This document shows, in pieces, positions 7,136 through 26,330 of a stretch of DNA of 48,581 nt (position 1 is the first letter of the stretch; each line of letters opens with the position of its first letter). A program made the position numbers and the translations under genes. Below the pieces are notes generated by a model. That model was given only the letters and a program-made list of their open reading frames with translations. It ran no database searches and was not told the origin of the DNA. The DNA is from Comamonadaceae bacterium (GTDB taxonomy: Bacteria; Pseudomonadota; Gammaproteobacteria; Burkholderiales; Burkholderiaceae_C): NCBI GenBank assembly GCA_947448885.1, contig CANFPJ010000009.1, positions 1 to 48,581 on the forward strand, written 5' to 3'.

Positions 7136-8068
7136 TCAGGCAAACTCGGCCAAGCTGGCTTTCATTTTCTTCATCGCCGCCACTTCGATTTGGCGAATGC
7201 GTTCAGCGCTCACACCATATTCGGCAGCCAGTTCGTGCAAGGTCATGCCGCCCGAACCGTCGTCATTGACTTTGAGCCAACGCTCTTCGACGATGCGCCG
7301 GCTGCGCGCGTCCAAACCCTCAAGCGCCATGGCCAGGCCATCGCTGGACAGCACATCGCGCTGATGCGCTTCCATCACCGCCGTGGGTTCGTGGCGCACA
7401 TCGGTGAGGTAGGCGATGGGGCCAAAGGCCTCTTCGCCATCGTCACCCGGGTTGGGGTCGAGCACCACATCGCCACCGGCCATGCGCGCCTCCATCTCCA
7501 GCACCTCTTCGGGCTTGACATGCAGGCTGTCGGCCACTTGGTTGACCTGTTCAGGGTTCAGGCTTTGGCGGTGTGCATTGGCATCGCTGACCTCTGCGCG
7601 CATGCCTTGCTTCATCGAGCGCAGGTTGAAAAACAGTTTGCGCTGCGCCTTGGTGGTGGCCACCTTGACCATGCGCCAGTTCTTCAAAATGTATTCATGG
7701 ATTTCGGCTTTGATCCAATGCAGGGCATAGCTCACCAAGCGTACCCCTTGCTCGGGGTCAAAGCGCTTGACCGCCTTCATCAGGCCCACATTGCCTTCTT
7801 GAATCAAGTCGGCATGTGGCAGGCCATAGCCCAAGTACTGGCGCGAGATGGACACCACCAAGCGCAGGTGCGAGAGCACCAGTTTGCCGGCAGCTTCCAT
7901 GTCTTGGTTGTCGCGCCATTGGCGGGCAAATTCTTGCTCCTGCTCCAAGGTGAGCATGGGCAAGCGGTTGGCCGCTGATATGTAGGCGTCCAGGTTGCCC
8001 AAAGGTGGAACCAGCGCCCAGGGATTGGCCACGCTGATGGGGCGGCTGCTCAGTGCAAGTTCTGTCAT
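7136..8068 (-). CDS. rpoH: RNA polymerase heat-shock sigma factor (sigma-32)
   Basis: 310 residues, typical RpoH. Region 2 reads LIQEGNVGLMKAVKRFDP; the RpoH-specific box QRKLFFNLRSMK follows; region 4.2 helix-turn-helix is LHELAAEYGVSAERIRQIE near the C-terminus. It directs transcription of chaperone and protease genes. I chose the ATG at 8068-8066, preceded by AGGAG, instead of a longer frame beginning inside the leader. The promoter is overlaid by a near-perfect CIRCE element (8104-8130), so HrcA, encoded at 25317-26330, probably represses rpoH. Confidence 0.97.
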   Translation of the reverse strand: MTELALSSRPISVANPWALVPPLGNLDAYISAANRLPMLTLEQEQEFARQWRDNQDMEAAGKLVLSHLRLVVSISRQYLGYGLPHADLIQEGNVGLMKAVKRFDPEQGVRLVSYALHWIKAEIHEYILKNWRMVKVATTKAQRKLFFNLRSMKQGMRAEVSDANAHRQSLNPEQVNQVADSLHVKPEEVLEMEARMAGGDVVLDPNPGDDGEEAFGPIAYLTDVRHEPTAVMEAHQRDVLSSDGLAMALEGLDARSRRIVEERWLKVNDDGSGGMTLHELAAEYGVSAERIRQIEVAAMKKMKASLAEFA

Positions 8069-8100
8069 GGCATTTCTCCTGAATGGATACTTAGGTGCGA

Positions 8101-8130
8101 ATGTTAGCACTCTGTGTTGCTGAGTGCCAA
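8101..8130 (-). promoter_or_regulatory. Predicted sigma-70 promoter of rpoH
   Basis: On the reverse strand TTGGCA (8130-8125) and TAACAT (8106-8101) are separated by 18 bases, reasonable -35 and -10 elements. The predicted start near 8094 gives a leader of about 26 bases containing the AGGAG site. Both elements are embedded in the CIRCE arms. Confidence 0.6.
8104..8130 (-). promoter_or_regulatory. CIRCE operator (HrcA-binding inverted repeat) of rpoH
   Basis: TTAGCACTC (8104-8112), nine-base spacer, GAGTGCCAA (8122-8130). The consensus is TTAGCACTC-N9-GAGTGCTAA, so 17 of 18 positions match. It lies 36 bases upstream of the rpoH start codon and covers the predicted promoter, the classical geometry for HrcA repression. 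Confidence 0.93.
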
Positions 8131-8286
8131 ACCTGTGGAGATTCTAGGGTTATCCCTTGATCTCAGTGGAGGTAAGCCTCGTTTTACTGATAAAAATCAA
8201 ACAGATAGGAGATATTGGTGGTTTTTGAGGCGGTGTTGATGTGACGCAGCCTCGTGCGTGCCAGTTGGGTTGGCGCTCAGCCGGCT

Positions 8287-9351
8287 TCAGCCCACAGCGC
8301 GGGCGTCTGCTGCGGCGCTGCCCAGCACGGCTTGAGAGAACTCTCGGGCCGAGAAGGTTTGCAGGTCTTCCAAGCTTTCGCCCACGCCAATGAAGTAAAC
8401 CGGCACGGTCGCACCATCGGTGCGTTGGCGCTCGCGCGACCACAAAGCGATGGCGGCCAGCACACCGCCCTTGGCCGTGCCATCGAGCTTGGTGACGATC
8501 AAGCCCGTCAGCCCCAGGGCTTGGTCAAAGGCCTGCACCTGGGCCAGGGCGTTTTGTCCGGTGTTGCCGTCGATGACCAGCAGCACTTCATGGGGGGCGC
8601 TGGGATCGGCCTTTTGCACCACCCGTTTGATCTTTTTCAACTCTTCCATCAAATGGGTTTGGGTCGGTAAGCGGCCTGCGGTATCAACGATGACCACGTC
8701 TTTGCCCCGGGCTTTGCCCGCTGTGACGGCATCAAAGGCCACGGCGGCGGGGTCTGCGCCCGCTTGGCTGATGATGTCAACCCGGCTGCGGTCGGCCCAG
8801 ACTTCCAGTTGTTCGCGCGCGGCCGCTCTGAACGTATCGGCAGCGGCCAGCAACACGCTGGCCCCGCTCTGGCTGAGGTGGCGCGTGAGTTTGCCAATGC
8901 TGGTGGTTTTGCCAGCCCCATTGACGCCAGTGACCATGATCACGCTGGGGTGGGCCTGGCCCAGTGTCAGTGGTTTTTCCAAGGGCAGCAGCAGCTCGCA
9001 CAACAGGTCTTCCAGCAGGGCTTGAACTTGTCTCGCTTCGGTGATGCCCTGGGACTTGACGGCAAGCTGCAATTGTTTCATCAGGTGGGTGGTGGCGGAC
9101 ACACCCGCATCGGCCATGAGCAAAGCCGACTCCAATGCCTCATACAACTCGGCATCAACGCGCGCACCAGTGAACACACTGGCCAAGCCTTGTCCCGTGC
9201 GCGCCAAACCCTTGCGCAAGCGCTGCAGCCAACCCCCTCGTTCAGGGGGGGCAGGGTTGGCCGAATCCGTGGTGATGGGCAATGCACTTGGCGCTGCGGA
9301 ATTGTCACCACCCCCATCATTGGCTTTGCTTTTTTTGAAAAAACTGAACAT
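8287..9351 (-). CDS. ftsY: Signal recognition particle receptor FtsY
   Basis: 354 residues, SRP-family GTPase. Short N-terminal linker (about 40 residues, with a long acidic A domain absent), helical N domain to about residue 125, then the G domain: G1 GVNGAGKTTSIGKL at about 142, DTAGR (G3), and TKLDGTAKGG (G4). It docks ribosome-nascent chains carrying SRP at the membrane. The start at MFSFFKKS is the usual membrane-targeting N-terminus; the longer open frame upstream runs antisense through the M16 gene and is rejected. Divergent from the M16 peptidase gene with 60 bases between starts, and upstream of rpoH on the same strand, separated by about 218 bases. Confidence 0.96.
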   Translation of the reverse strand: MFSFFKKSKANDGGGDNSAAPSALPITTDSANPAPPERGGWLQRLRKGLARTGQGLASVFTGARVDAELYEALESALLMADAGVSATTHLMKQLQLAVKSQGITEARQVQALLEDLLCELLLPLEKPLTLGQAHPSVIMVTGVNGAGKTTSIGKLTRHLSQSGASVLLAAADTFRAAAREQLEVWADRSRVDIISQAGADPAAVAFDAVTAGKARGKDVVIVDTAGRLPTQTHLMEELKKIKRVVQKADPSAPHEVLLVIDGNTGQNALAQVQAFDQALGLTGLIVTKLDGTAKGGVLAAIALWSRERQRTDGATVPVYFIGVGESLEDLQTFSAREFSQAVLGSAAADARAVG

Positions 9352-9411
9352 GCGGCAGGGTATATAGTTGTTGGATCGAGCAATGCTCAGTGTGTCTGTG
9401 GTTCTTATTCT

Positions 9412-10818
9412 ATGAAACAGTTCTTTGTGCGCTGCTTGGCCGCAGTCGCCGTGTGTTGGTCTCCCCTGGTGGGGGCGCAACCCACACCCCATCCCATCAG
9501 CACCTTCACCCTGCCCAACGGCATGACCTTGGTGGTCAAGCCCGATCGGCGCGCGCCCACGGCGGTGCACATGGTGTGGTTGCGGGTGGGCTCCATGGAC
9601 GAGGTGGACGGCGTCTCCGGCGTTGCCCATGTGCTCGAGCACATGCTCTTCAAAGGCACGCCCAGCGTCAAAGCTGGTGAGTTTTCGCGACGGGTGGCTG
9701 CTTTGGGCGGGCGCGAAAACGCCTTCACCAGCCAAGACTACACCGGATACTTTCAGCAAATACCGGCTCAGCGCTTGGCCGATGTGATGCAACTCGAGGC
9801 CGATCGGTTTGCCAACAACCAGTGGCCAGACGAAGAGTTTGTCAAAGAGTTGGAAGTGGTGAAAGAGGAGCGCCGCATGCGCACCGATGACACGCCACGG
9901 TCCTTGCTGTATGAAAAATTGTCGGCGGTTCAGTTCAGCGCATCCCCCTATCGCCGCCCCATCGTCGGTTGGATGGAAGATTTGGACGCCATGAAGCCCA
10001 ACGACGCCAGGGCTTTTTACCAGCAGTGGTACACCCCGGCCAATGCGGTGGTGGTGGTGGTGGGCGATGTGGTGGTCGATGAGGTACACCGTTTGGCCCT
10101 GACCCACTACGGCAACATACCGGCGCGGGCCTTGCCCGAGCGCAAACCGCGCACCGAACCAGCCCAGCGGGGTCTGCGTCGTTTGGATGTGAAAGCCCCC
10201 GCCGAGCAAGCTTATGTGGCTTTGTCGTTCAAGGTGCCGACCTTCACCGGTTTTGATGGCAGCGCCACCAACCAAGACGCCTTGGCGCTGACCGTCTTGG
10301 CCGCCGTGCTGGACGGCTACAGCAGCGCCCGGTTGGACCGGGCTTTGACCCAAGGCGCCGATCGATGGGCCGACAGCGTGGGCGCCCACAATGGTTTGAC
10401 TGGGCGCGGCCCACAAACGTTTGTTTTGGAAGGTGTGCCGGCGCCAGGCAAAAGCGCGCACGAACTCGAGCGCGCTTTGCGCGAGCAAGTGGCCATCGTG
10501 GCGCGCGACGGCGTCAGCGAGAGTGAGCTTCGGCGGGTGAAAAATCAGTGGGAGGCCTCGGCCGTTTACGGGCGCGACTCGCTGTTCAACCAAGCGCGTG
10601 AAATGGGCAGTTTTTGGGCCGAGGGCTTGCCGCTGGATACCAATGACCGCTTGATCGCCGCTTTGCAAGCGATCACCCCGGCCCAGGTGCAGTCGGTGGC
10701 AGCGCGGTATTTTGGTGATGACGAATTGACCGTGGCGCATTTGCTGCCGCAAGCCCGAGCGGCCGCAGGACAGCGCAAACCGTCGGTGCCTTTGCGGCAC
10801 GGTGGGGGTGAACGATGA
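9412..10818 (+). CDS. M16 family zinc metallopeptidase (active subunit)
   Basis: 468 residues. A signal peptide (about residues 1-22, ending VGAQ) indicates periplasmic location. The inverted zinc motif HxxEH is intact as HVLEH (residues 73-77), with downstream glutamates in LEVVKEERRMRTD giving the third ligand. Two M16 domains span about 30-200 and 215-440. Pitrilysin-like enzymes degrade short peptides. It overlaps by ATGA with a second M16 gene lacking the motif, so the pair probably forms an active/inactive heterodimer like the mitochondrial processing peptidase. Physiological substrate unknown. Confidence 0.92.
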   Translation: MKQFFVRCLAAVAVCWSPLVGAQPTPHPISTFTLPNGMTLVVKPDRRAPTAVHMVWLRVGSMDEVDGVSGVAHVLEHMLFKGTPSVKAGEFSRRVAALGGRENAFTSQDYTGYFQQIPAQRLADVMQLEADRFANNQWPDEEFVKELEVVKEERRMRTDDTPRSLLYEKLSAVQFSASPYRRPIVGWMEDLDAMKPNDARAFYQQWYTPANAVVVVVGDVVVDEVHRLALTHYGNIPARALPERKPRTEPAQRGLRRLDVKAPAEQAYVALSFKVPTFTGFDGSATNQDALALTVLAAVLDGYSSARLDRALTQGADRWADSVGAHNGLTGRGPQTFVLEGVPAPGKSAHELERALREQVAIVARDGVSESELRRVKNQWEASAVYGRDSLFNQAREMGSFWAEGLPLDTNDRLIAALQAITPAQVQSVAARYFGDDELTVAHLLPQARAAAGQRKPSVPLRHGGGER

Positions 10819-12140
10819 AGCGCTGGCTGGTGGGATGGATGGCGAGTCTGTGGTGCATGGGCTGGGTCCATGCGGGCATTCCCGTTGAGCACTGGACCCT
10901 GCCCAATGGGGCCCAGGTTTACCTGGTGTACAGCCCAGGCTTGCCCATGGTGGATGTGCAAATGGATTTCGATGCCGGGTCCAGGCGCGACCCGGCGGAG
11001 CGTTCCGGTTTGGCCAGTGCCACGGCATTGATGATAGGCAAGGGCTTGAAGGCGCGCGGCGCTTTGCCCGCCTTGGACGAAAACGCAGTGGGTGAGGCCT
11101 GGGCCGATGGGGGTGCTTTGTTCTCAGCTTCGGCCAGCAGCGACCGCATGAGCTTTACCCTGCGCAGCCTGACCCGACCCGAGGTGCTGGATGCGTCGAT
11201 GCGCTTGGCCGCTCGACACCTGGCAGACCCAGCTTTTGCCGCAGACATTTGGAACCGTGAACGCCAGCGCTGGAGTGCCAGTTTGCGTGAATCGCTCACC
11301 AAGCCTGGCACCGTGGCCGACCGCGCTTGGACGCCCGCTGTGTTTGGCACCCACCCTTATGGCCAGCAAACCACGCCTGAGACTTTGTTGGCTGTCTCGG
11401 TGGCTGACATGCAGGCCTTCCATGCACGGCACATCTTGCCGTGCCGAGCCAAGGTCAGTGTGGTGGGGGCGCTCAGCCGGGCCCAGGTGCAAGTGCGGGT
11501 GACCGAGTTGTTGGCGGCTTTGCCCCCAGGTGGCCCATGTGCCGCATTGCCGGTGGTGCCTGAAGTGACGCCGCTCACCCAAGCCAAAGAAATGTGGATC
11601 CCTTTTGAATCTGCGCAAGCCCATGTCAGCATGGGTCAGCCCGGTTTCAAACGCAACGACCCCGATTTTTTCGCCCTCACGGTGGGCAACTATGTGTTGG
11701 GTGGCGGTGGCTTTGTGTCGCGCTTGACCGAGCAAGTGCGTGAAAAACGCGGTTTGAGCTACAGCGTTTACAGCTACTTTTCACCTGGCTTGCATGCGGG
11801 TCCCTTTGCCATTGGTTTGCAAACGCGGCCTGACCAGGCGCGCCAGGCGGTGGAAGTGGCCCGCTCGGTGTTGAAGGAATTTGTGGAAAAAGGCCCCAGC
11901 GAGGCTGAGTTGCAAGCGGCCAAAGACAACCTGAATGGCGGTTTTGCCCTGCGCTTGGACAGCAATCGCAAATTGCTCGACAACTTGGCCAACATCGCCT
12001 GGCATCAACTGCCCTTGGACTACCTCGATACCTGGACGCAAAAGGTTCAGGCCCTGACGGTGCAAGACATCACCCAAGCTTTTGCACGCAAAGTGCAACC
12101 CGACCGCCAAGTGACGGTGGTGGTGGGCGGTGCCCCCTGA
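10815..12140 (+). CDS. M16 family peptidase-like protein (inactive partner)
   Basis: 441 residues, signal peptide to about residue 20 (GWVHAG). Same fold as the preceding gene, but the HxxEH position is replaced by SGLASATALMIG, so zinc cannot be bound there. The glycine-rich loop GNYVLGGGGFVSRL and the LREKRGLSYSV-like segment (VREKRGLSYSVYSYF) near residue 300 are intact; in M16 pairs these features of the non-catalytic chain hold substrate. The start is coupled to the upstream gene (ATGA at 10815). Likely works only with its partner. Confidence 0.9.
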   Translation: MKRWLVGWMASLWCMGWVHAGIPVEHWTLPNGAQVYLVYSPGLPMVDVQMDFDAGSRRDPAERSGLASATALMIGKGLKARGALPALDENAVGEAWADGGALFSASASSDRMSFTLRSLTRPEVLDASMRLAARHLADPAFAADIWNRERQRWSASLRESLTKPGTVADRAWTPAVFGTHPYGQQTTPETLLAVSVADMQAFHARHILPCRAKVSVVGALSRAQVQVRVTELLAALPPGGPCAALPVVPEVTPLTQAKEMWIPFESAQAHVSMGQPGFKRNDPDFFALTVGNYVLGGGGFVSRLTEQVREKRGLSYSVYSYFSPGLHAGPFAIGLQTRPDQARQAVEVARSVLKEFVEKGPSEAELQAAKDNLNGGFALRLDSNRKLLDNLANIAWHQLPLDYLDTWTQKVQALTVQDITQAFARKVQPDRQVTVVVGGAP

Positions 12141-24390: not shown

Positions 24391-25283
24391 GCTCCCCCCT
24401 CGTTCCAATGCAGTTTTTTCCGCAAGGTGTCAAAGTAACTCCAACCCTTGGGGTGCAAAAAAGTCACTTGGTGCTGTGAGCGCCGCACCGTGATGCGGTC
24501 ACCGTGCAGCAGTTTGGCCAGCGACTGCATGTCAAAGTTGGCGCTGGCGTCGCGCCCGGACACCAATTCGACCGCAATTTCACCCGGATCGGCCAGCACG
24601 ATGGGTCGGTTGGACAAGGTGTGTGGGGCGATGGGCACCAGCGCCCAGCCCGACAGCGCGGGGTGGAGCACCGGCCCGCCCGCCGACAAGGCGTAGGCGG
24701 TGGACCCTGTGGGTGAAGCAATGATCAAACCGTCTGCCCGCTGATTGGCCACAAAGTGGCCATCCACCTCCACCCGCAGCTCGACCATGCCCGAGGTGGC
24801 ACCGCGGTTGACCACCACATCGTTCATGGCCAAGGCGTCAAAAACGCAAACCCCGTCGCGCCACACCTTGGCGTGCATCAAGGGGCGCTGGTCTTCCTCG
24901 TACAAGCCCTCCAGCATGGGGGTCAAGGTGGCTTGGTAGCCATCCAGGGCGATGTCGGTGATGAAGCCCAGCCGGCCTTGGTTGATGCCAATCAAGGGCA
25001 CGCCCGCCGCGGCCAAGCGCCGGCCAAAGCTGAGCATGGTGCCGTCGCCACCCACCACCAAGGCCACATCGCAGTGCAGGGCAATGCCGTCCACATCCAG
25101 GGTGCGCAGGCCTTGCAAGCCGGTGTGGTTGGCGGTTTCTTGTTCCAGGCAAACGCTGCAACCCAGCTGGGTCAGAAAGTGGGCGATGTCTTGTAAAACA
25201 TCACGCACGCCGGACAGCTGGGTGGTGCTTTGGGGATTGGGGTATTTACCAATCAGGGCGATTTGTTGAAAGCGAATGGGCAT
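24387..25283 (-). CDS. nadK: NAD kinase
   Basis: 298 residues. Family motifs: [14 protein letters not shown] (diphosphate-binding GGDGT), GINQGRLGF and [15 protein letters not shown]. It phosphorylates NAD to NADP. The start [14 protein letters not shown] matches the family N-terminus. First gene of the nadK-recN-rapZ operon, divergent from hrcA with only 33 bases between starts, a widely conserved betaproteobacterial arrangement. Confidence 0.96.
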
Positions 25284-25316
25284 GGGGAAATTACATCACT
25301 AAAATCATTCGAAATC

Positions 25317-26330
25317 ATGACCATCCTAGACGATCGCGCCAAGTTATTGCTCAAAGCGTTGGTTGAACGCTATATCGCCGATGGCCAGCCGGTGGGATCG
25401 CGCACTTTGTCCAGGGCTTCTGGGCTGGAGCTGTCACCCGCCACCATTCGCAATGTGATGTCCGATTTGGAGGAGCTGGGCCTGATTGCCAGCCCCCACA
25501 CCTCGGCAGGTCGGGTGCCCACGGCCCGGGGTTACCGCTTGTTCGTCGACACCATGCTCACGGTGCAGCGCGAACAACTCCAAACCCCAGCCCTGGCGGC
25601 TGAGCAACCGCAAAAAGTCATTTTGAATGCGGCGCAGTTGCTGTCCAACTTGTCACACTTTGTGGGTGTGGTGATTGCACCCAGGCGCACATCGGTGTTT
25701 CGCCACATTGAATTTTTGCGCTTGTCGGAGCGCCGATTGCTGCTGATCATCGTCTCGCCAGAGGGTGATGTGCAAAACCGGGTGATCTTCACCGAGACCG
25801 ACTACTCCACCAGCCAACTGGTCGAGGCCGCCAATTTCCTCAACACCCATTTCGCCGGCATGGCCATTGAGCAGGTGCGTGAACGCCTCAAGTCCGAGGT
25901 GGACAAACTGCGCAGCGAAATCGCCACCTTGATGCAAACGGCGGTCGCGGCAGGCTCCGAGGCCATGAACGACACCACCGCAGAGGTGATCATCAGCGGC
26001 GAGCGCAATCTGTTGGCGGTGAGCGACTTCTCCAGCGACATGGGCCATTTGCGCCGGGCCTTTGAGTTGTTTGAACAAAAAGCCCAGCTCATGCGCTTGC
26101 TCGACGTGTCTTCCCAGGCCGAGGGCGTGAGCATTTTCATTGGCGGTGAGAGCCAAATCGTGCCCTTTGAAGAGCTCTCGGTGGTCAGCTCGCCGTACGA
26201 GGTCAATGGCCAGGTGGTGGGCACATTGGGGGTGATTGGCCCCACCCGCATGCCCTATGAGCGCATGATCCAAATCGTGGACATCACTTCACGGCTGGTC
26301 AGCAATGCCCTCAGCCACCAAAACAAATAA
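25317..26330 (+). CDS. hrcA: Heat-inducible transcriptional repressor HrcA
   Basis: 337 residues. N-terminal winged helix with [20 protein letters not shown] and [15 protein letters not shown], then the GAF-like dimerisation domain and the C-terminal [20 protein letters not shown] block. HrcA binds CIRCE and is kept active by GroEL. An obvious target is in this window: CIRCE over the rpoH promoter (8104-8130). I see no CIRCE in the 33-base nadK-hrcA gap, so direct autoregulation at the immediate promoter is not evident. Start ATG at 25317; the longer open frame upstream is antisense to nadK. Confidence 0.96.

Follow-up and report, generated by a model that had tools for sequence, protein, structure and literature searches.

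A CIRCE element over the predicted rpoH promoter accompanies hrcA in Gammaproteobacteria and points to probable HrcA control of sigma-32 synthesis

Upstream of rpoH, which encodes the heat-shock sigma factor sigma-32, a Comamonadaceae bacterium carries a CIRCE inverted repeat that covers, by sequence, both the -35 and the -10 of this heat-shock gene promoter. We consider it very probable that the element is a functional operator for HrcA on the housekeeping promoter of rpoH, through which HrcA would repress rpoH and free GroEL would gate the synthesis of sigma-32. The anatomy of the site, the order of its parts, its conservation and its co-occurrence with hrcA were observed directly, and the repression of rpoH by HrcA, as first proposed in a sequence-only reading of this DNA, is supported by comparison of genomes.

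The stretch of DNA analyzed here (the window) is 48,581 nt long. CIRCE elements were sought with the inverted repeat TTAGCACTC-N9-GAGTGCTAA, in which 18 arm positions are scored and which matches the consensus given in the part of Rodionov et al. (PMC545781) available to us. At 8104-8130 the window reads TTAGCACTC-N9-GAGTGCCAA, in agreement with CIRCE at 17 of 18 positions (1 mismatch). The full element, TTAGCACTCTGTGTTGCTGAGTGCCAA, is a near-perfect palindrome and, as a putative HrcA site on the minus strand, becomes TTGGCACTC-N9-GAGTGCTAA when reading towards rpoH, whose start codon lies 35 bases from the end of the element. No other match at ≤3 mismatches occurs in the window, and 100 dinucleotide-preserving shuffles of the window yielded no CIRCE match; the 17-position agreement upstream of rpoH claimed by the sequence-only reading is thus borne out. 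The 3.35-Mb draft genome as a whole (88% complete) contains two CIRCE places at ≤3 mismatches, the one at rpoH and a perfect one (C3:69238) standing before groES-groEL, and the reversed pattern, used as a control, found no match across the same draft.

The rpoH gene (7136-8068, minus strand) encodes a protein of 310 aa recognized by TIGR02392 with 391.6 bits (cut-off 323.1). The window also carries hrcA, encoding the heat-inducible transcriptional repressor, at 25317-26330 on the plus strand (TIGR00331, 311.9 bits; cut-off 197.2). Its open reading frame extends over 25230-26330, with an ATG at 25317, exactly where the gene had been placed from sequence, and the TIGR00331 match spans 25329-26309.

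Read on the minus strand, the region upstream of rpoH presents, in order, TTGGCA (8130-8125), a spacer of 18 bases, TAACAT (8106-8101), AGGAG (8080-8076) and the ATG, whose first base is 8068; on this strand, the two hexamers and coordinates quoted in the earlier reading are correct. As a -35, TTGGCA (8125-8130) falls inside the left CIRCE arm, and the -10 (8101-8109, minus strand) takes up the right arm together with three further bases, being classed as extended because the TGC of the operator arm precedes TAACAT. From the position of the -10 we infer a transcription start near 8094, which would give rpoH a leader of 26 bases (8069-8094, minus strand) with AGGAG at 8080-8076 as its ribosome-binding site. 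Such a promoter would be of the housekeeping, sigma-70 type with an extended -10. Among the 186 rpoH CIRCE sites compared, TTAGCA or TTGGCA occupies the -35 in 153, and T is the sixth base of the -10 in 180, versus 4 of 28 groES sites.

The groES sites (29 of 34 groES matches were used) show a different promoter arrangement. CIRCE precedes groES in 28 of 28 genomes of the window's order that have hrcA and is missing in the one without it (G137). Using the established consensus words of sigma-70, sigma-32 and sigma-E for scoring, we found a sigma-32-type score of at least 11 of 13 within 60 bases of CIRCE at 20 of the 28 groES sites versus 2 of the 186 rpoH sites. The layout at groES is a sigma-32 promoter followed by CIRCE, and in the window's own genome CTTGAAA-N12-CCCTTAT (sigma-32 score 12) stands directly 5' of the operator. 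Judged by sequence, the housekeeping sigma factor would direct transcription of rpoH and sigma-32 that of groESL, with HrcA acting on both.

We examined how the rpoH site is distributed in relation to hrcA across the class, taken as Gammaproteobacteria in the GTDB sense with Burkholderiales included. A site was called at ≤4 of 18 mismatches to CIRCE, a threshold with about 1% false matches (2 of 222 reversed sequences matched at 4 mismatches and none at ≤3) on which two rpoH sites, those of G127 and G144, depend. Among class genomes checked for both features, CIRCE precedes rpoH in 180 of 183 with hrcA versus 2 of 43 without, counts that come from an uneven sample in which related genomes are non-independent. 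Conservation in close relatives, which the sequence-only reading had singled out as a check on its proposal, was found throughout the hrcA-bearing members of the window's family (39 of 39). The family sample comprised 43 of 120 genomes, namely the 30 whose loci scored best, 11 others picked by hand, mostly with low scores, and G000 and G114; 40 of 41 genomes (30 + 11 more) carry CIRCE upstream of rpoH, and hrcA was detected in 39 of these 41. The remaining two are incomplete and stand outside the class totals: G093 (55% complete), where neither site nor hrcA was found, and G045 (86% complete), where the rpoH site is present and no hrcA was found.

The order sample consisted of 100 genomes, all ≥95% complete except the window's own (88%), with rpoH above the cut-off in 99. 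The site was present in 88 of 88 genomes with hrcA and in none of the 11 in which hrcA is absent or decayed, the latter spanning six families (f4, f19, f34, f40, f41 and f44). From a class-wide draw of 87 genomes, nearly all from different families, the site was recovered in 53 of the 56 newly added hrcA-bearing genomes and in 2 of 21 without hrcA, and 11 further hrcA-less members of the class, obtained in a draw across the phylum, all lacked it. Genomes with no rpoH above the cut-off (G148 in the order; G232, G247, G273, G276, G278 and G291 in the class) were left out, as were second rpoH-like genes (G164b, with a site; G243b and G288b, without) and two genomes with a partial hrcA, both of which have the site (G269 and G289). 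In other classes of the phylum, no rpoH site was seen in 13 genomes with hrcA (best 6-9 mismatches), these being the ones with the best rpoH scores among 53 genomes outside the class and, at a guess, alphaproteobacteria. CIRCE was also present at rpoH in 52 of the best 80 of 591 named loci. In 30 chosen genomes of this named panel, which may overlap the other samples, the site accompanied hrcA in 16 of 18 and was absent from all 12 without hrcA, among them members of Pseudomonas, Haemophilus, Aeromonas, Dickeya and Idiomarina.

On a quick single-gene RpoH tree of 99 chosen rows, on which gain and loss are not distinguishable, hrcA changes at least 10 times and CIRCE at least 13 times. A presence/absence test on this tree gave 10 independent pairs on all branches and 3 on well-supported branches; none of these 3 goes the opposite way, and the sign test on them was not significant (median p 0.25). 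The case for joint presence rests on the counts, on the contrast between two genomes of genus g153 and on relics of the operator. In this genus, G191 combines hrcA with a perfect rpoH site, and G152 (99% complete) lacks hrcA and shows, close before rpoH, a relic at 5 mismatches across which GGAACTT-N16-TCATA is retained. In G277 and G275 (3 mismatches), the CIRCE arms at rpoH are damaged and a sigma-E-like pair is still there.

A few genomes depart from the rule. G227, G238 and G272 of the class sample have hrcA and no standard rpoH site, and G230 (1 mismatch) and the above-mentioned G275 retain a site without hrcA. The hrcA-bearing exceptions of the named panel are Thiohalocapsa halophila (no site) and Xanthomonas pisi (a degenerate variant). 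The genome of Thiohalocapsa halophila (G385, locus L349) contains five CIRCE-like sites at ≤3 mismatches, none of them found upstream of rpoH. In Lysobacteraceae NML93-0793 (L371), the rpoH operator reads TTAGCAGTC-N9-GACTGCTAA, both arms being altered symmetrically, and imperfect forms of this variant precede rpoH in Luteimonas terricola (L344) and Xanthomonas pisi (L337). A symmetric change of the arms fits recognition by a dimeric, dyad-binding repressor and not by promoter hexamers, and it suggests that the specificity of HrcA has shifted in the Lysobacteraceae/Luteimonas/Xanthomonas group.

In many relatives, a further promoter-like element runs through the operator. In E. coli, the rpoH promoter P3 is sigma-E-dependent, with a GAACTT-type -35 and a TC..A -10. 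We scored, out of 12, the corresponding element GGAACTT, 15-17 bases, TC[TA][GA]A, and obtained at least 10 at 101 of the 186 rpoH CIRCE sites versus none of the 28 groES sites, 11 of 918 shifted control windows of 24 bases reaching this value. In the upstream profile of these sites, GGAACTT stands some 16 bases ahead of the operator. At offsets -17/-16 it is present (≥6 of 7) in 42 of 86 order sites and 29 of 57 class sites versus 18 of 6484 background positions, and with a spacing of 16 bases the sigma-E -10 is made up of the last TC of the left CIRCE arm and the loop. In relatives (for example L296 and L313) the element occurs in two registers, -16 in most and -12 in the window's family, where 19 of 43 sites score at least 10 and most copies, where present, lie four bases closer, with the -10 within the CIRCE loop. 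The best copy in the window (8101-8150) reaches 8 of 12, control windows averaging about 7 and G080 of the same genus 9; it is too degenerate for a sigma-E promoter to be claimed in the window itself. The arrangement in relatives differs from P3 in that the sigma-E-type promoter runs through the operator in about half of those with CIRCE. Of 28 named loci that lack CIRCE, 25 also have P3-like -35 and -10 words within 250 bases before rpoH, a region longer than the 24-base controls. Among order and class genomes without hrcA, only 5 of 32 (G152, G218, G242, G275 and G277) score at least 10 within 300 bases, a count that tells against a sigma-E promoter outliving the operator.

The mechanism that we propose, from use of the rpoH promoter through HrcA binding and repression to the titration of GroEL, is predicted from sequence. 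HrcA, kept active by free GroEL, would bind both arms and exclude RNA polymerase from the rpoH promoter; upon titration of GroEL by unfolded protein, or unfolding of HrcA by heat, the promoter would open and more sigma-32 would be made. Because groESL appears to need sigma-32 and would also be blocked by HrcA, HrcA would act on groESL twice, directly and via sigma-32, in a coherent feed-forward loop, and newly made GroEL would restore HrcA, closing the loop by negative feedback. In relatives with the sigma-E-type promoter in the operator, the envelope-stress input to rpoH would also be under HrcA control.

Several other explanations of the element have to be weighed against control of rpoH by HrcA. 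Although unlikely, a minor role of the repressor keeps an appreciable probability: HrcA would bind, sigma-32 would be set as in E. coli by rpoH mRNA structure and by chaperone/FtsH control, and the operator would trim basal transcription. The motif QRKLFFNLR, which we take to be the RpoH box for chaperone-dependent control, is invariant in an alignment of 14 RpoH proteins including that of the window, so that chaperone-dependent control of sigma-32 probably persists. We also folded the rpoH leader, as a candidate RNA thermosensor of the E. coli type, from its predicted mRNA start, at three lengths (95, 195 and 245 bases) and five temperatures. From 25 to 45 degrees, pairing of the start codon fell from 0.83 to 0.60 in the 195-base fold and from 0.69 to 0.56 in the 245-base fold; the 95-base fold, however, showed no opening, pairing of the ribosome-binding site was nearly constant with temperature, and the folds were not unusually stable compared to mononucleotide shuffles (z 1.4, -1.4 and -0.8). 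Post-transcriptional control is compatible with the operator, and if sigma-32 is controlled mainly after transcription, the share of HrcA may be small, but the hrcA-linked conservation of the site argues for an appreciable effect.

It is very improbable that the element is mainly a promoter with an incidental palindrome, conserved on account of RNA polymerase and not of HrcA. In its favour, both hexamers lie inside the arms, and rpoH sites complete the -10. Against it, the arms vary no more outside the hexamers than within them (partly a built-in result, the sites having been chosen by CIRCE similarity), genomes without hrcA nearly always lack the palindrome, the relics of G152 and G277 keep the sigma-E-type promoter words while the operator arms decay, and the symmetric arm substitution of one Lysobacteraceae genome speaks against it as well. 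Inverted repeats can also work as hairpins in transcripts, and the repeat might serve transcript stability or as a thermosensor rather than as an operator. We regard this as very improbable too: the -35 and -10 inside the element put it upstream of the predicted start, where it would be untranscribed from this promoter, and a hairpin does not predict co-occurrence with hrcA. Autoregulation of rpoH by sigma-32, with CIRCE secondary, has a precedent in the positive autoregulation of rpoH in Caulobacter, and in the window the best sigma-32-type score in the 560 bases upstream of rpoH, 10 of 13, belongs to CCTCAAA..CCTATCT, which lies roughly 100 bases 5' of CIRCE. Its probability is nevertheless very small, and the scarcity of sigma-32-type scores within 60 bases of the rpoH sites compared to groES leaves it unsupported beside CIRCE.

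Taken together, the site is kept or lost mostly with hrcA, which suggests that HrcA acts as one chaperone-controlled repressor above the whole heat-shock response. We tentatively extend this view, in a form slightly more apt to fail than to hold, to hrcA-bearing Gammaproteobacteria in general, where HrcA would be the transcriptional gatekeeper of sigma-32. A single operator would cover the sigma-70 promoter and, in about half the genomes, a sigma-E promoter as well, so that cytosolic folding capacity, in the form of free GroEL, would veto both housekeeping and envelope-stress input; rpoH control of the E. coli/Pseudomonas type would be derived, having followed the loss of hrcA, and some such lineages would have retained the sigma-E promoter. 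The teaching of proteobacterial heat-shock regulation usually starts from E. coli, a species not known to have hrcA. The sequence-only reading had described the circuit as different from that of E. coli, which is right and understates the matter, the arrangement being the usual one in sampled class genomes wherever hrcA exists. If HrcA does occupy the rpoH promoter in nearly all hrcA-bearing members of the class, control by repressor and by sigma factor would form a single hierarchy and not two systems side by side, and the mode seen in E. coli may be the remnant of a loss; the joint absence of hrcA and operator, with relics, makes this testable by comparing sister species. Sites for sigma-70, sigma-E and HrcA within about 50 bases would also make a compact case of three signals on one promoter.

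The closest known case is Geobacter sulfurreducens, for which Rodionov et al. (2004; PMC545781) predicted a perfect CIRCE upstream of rpoH, at -51 relative to the start of the gene, so that the earlier reading was apt in claiming no priority. Like the genomes described here, it has hrcA and CIRCE at both groESL and rpoH (PMC545781); unlike them, it is a deltaproteobacterium with CIRCE also at hrcA-grpE-dnaK-dnaJ, and the part of PMC545781 available to us does not describe, for this organism, promoter overlap, a class-wide rule or loss with hrcA. The same paper cites a 2003 survey by Permina and Gelfand of HrcA/CIRCE and sigma-32 regulons in beta-, gamma- and epsilon-proteobacteria, in which CIRCE at some of the rpoH genes of these groups may already have been noted. 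The HrcA-GroEL switch, with chaperonin feedback on HrcA, is covered for Bacillus subtilis, Chlamydia and Helicobacter pylori in the accessible portion of PMC6032397, and the release of HrcA upon GroEL titration is proposed here as described there for these other bacteria. Repressor family and operator type are the same there as here. The HrcA targets given there for Helicobacter pylori are the groESL and hrcA-grpE-dnaK operons, to which the heat-shock sigma gene would be added here. In the literature searched, mainly titles and abstracts with subscription journals sparsely represented, we found no report that HrcA controls rpoH in beta- or gammaproteobacteria, and none of a sigma-E promoter inside CIRCE or of a class-wide rule linking hrcA to an rpoH CIRCE.

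We also inspected the region upstream of hrcA itself in the window and in nine order genomes. None of these 10 upstream stretches contains CIRCE before hrcA (best 7-9 mismatches), and the best sigma-32-type scores are 8-10 of 13. A hexamer of TAAAAT, TACAAT or TAGAAT type is located near the hrcA ATG in 8 of the 10 (window 25230-25330; L225-L233), in the window as a -10-like TAAAAT shortly 5' of the ATG, which suggests that hrcA is read from a housekeeping promoter. Because this type of hexamer lies so near the ATG, the hrcA transcript may be nearly leaderless. Beyond the rpoH operator comes ftsY, upstream of rpoH and in the same orientation. Its open frame (913 aa, 8287-11028, minus strand) is over-long, the FtsY match beginning at residue 625, and the true start is more likely at MFSFFKKSK.
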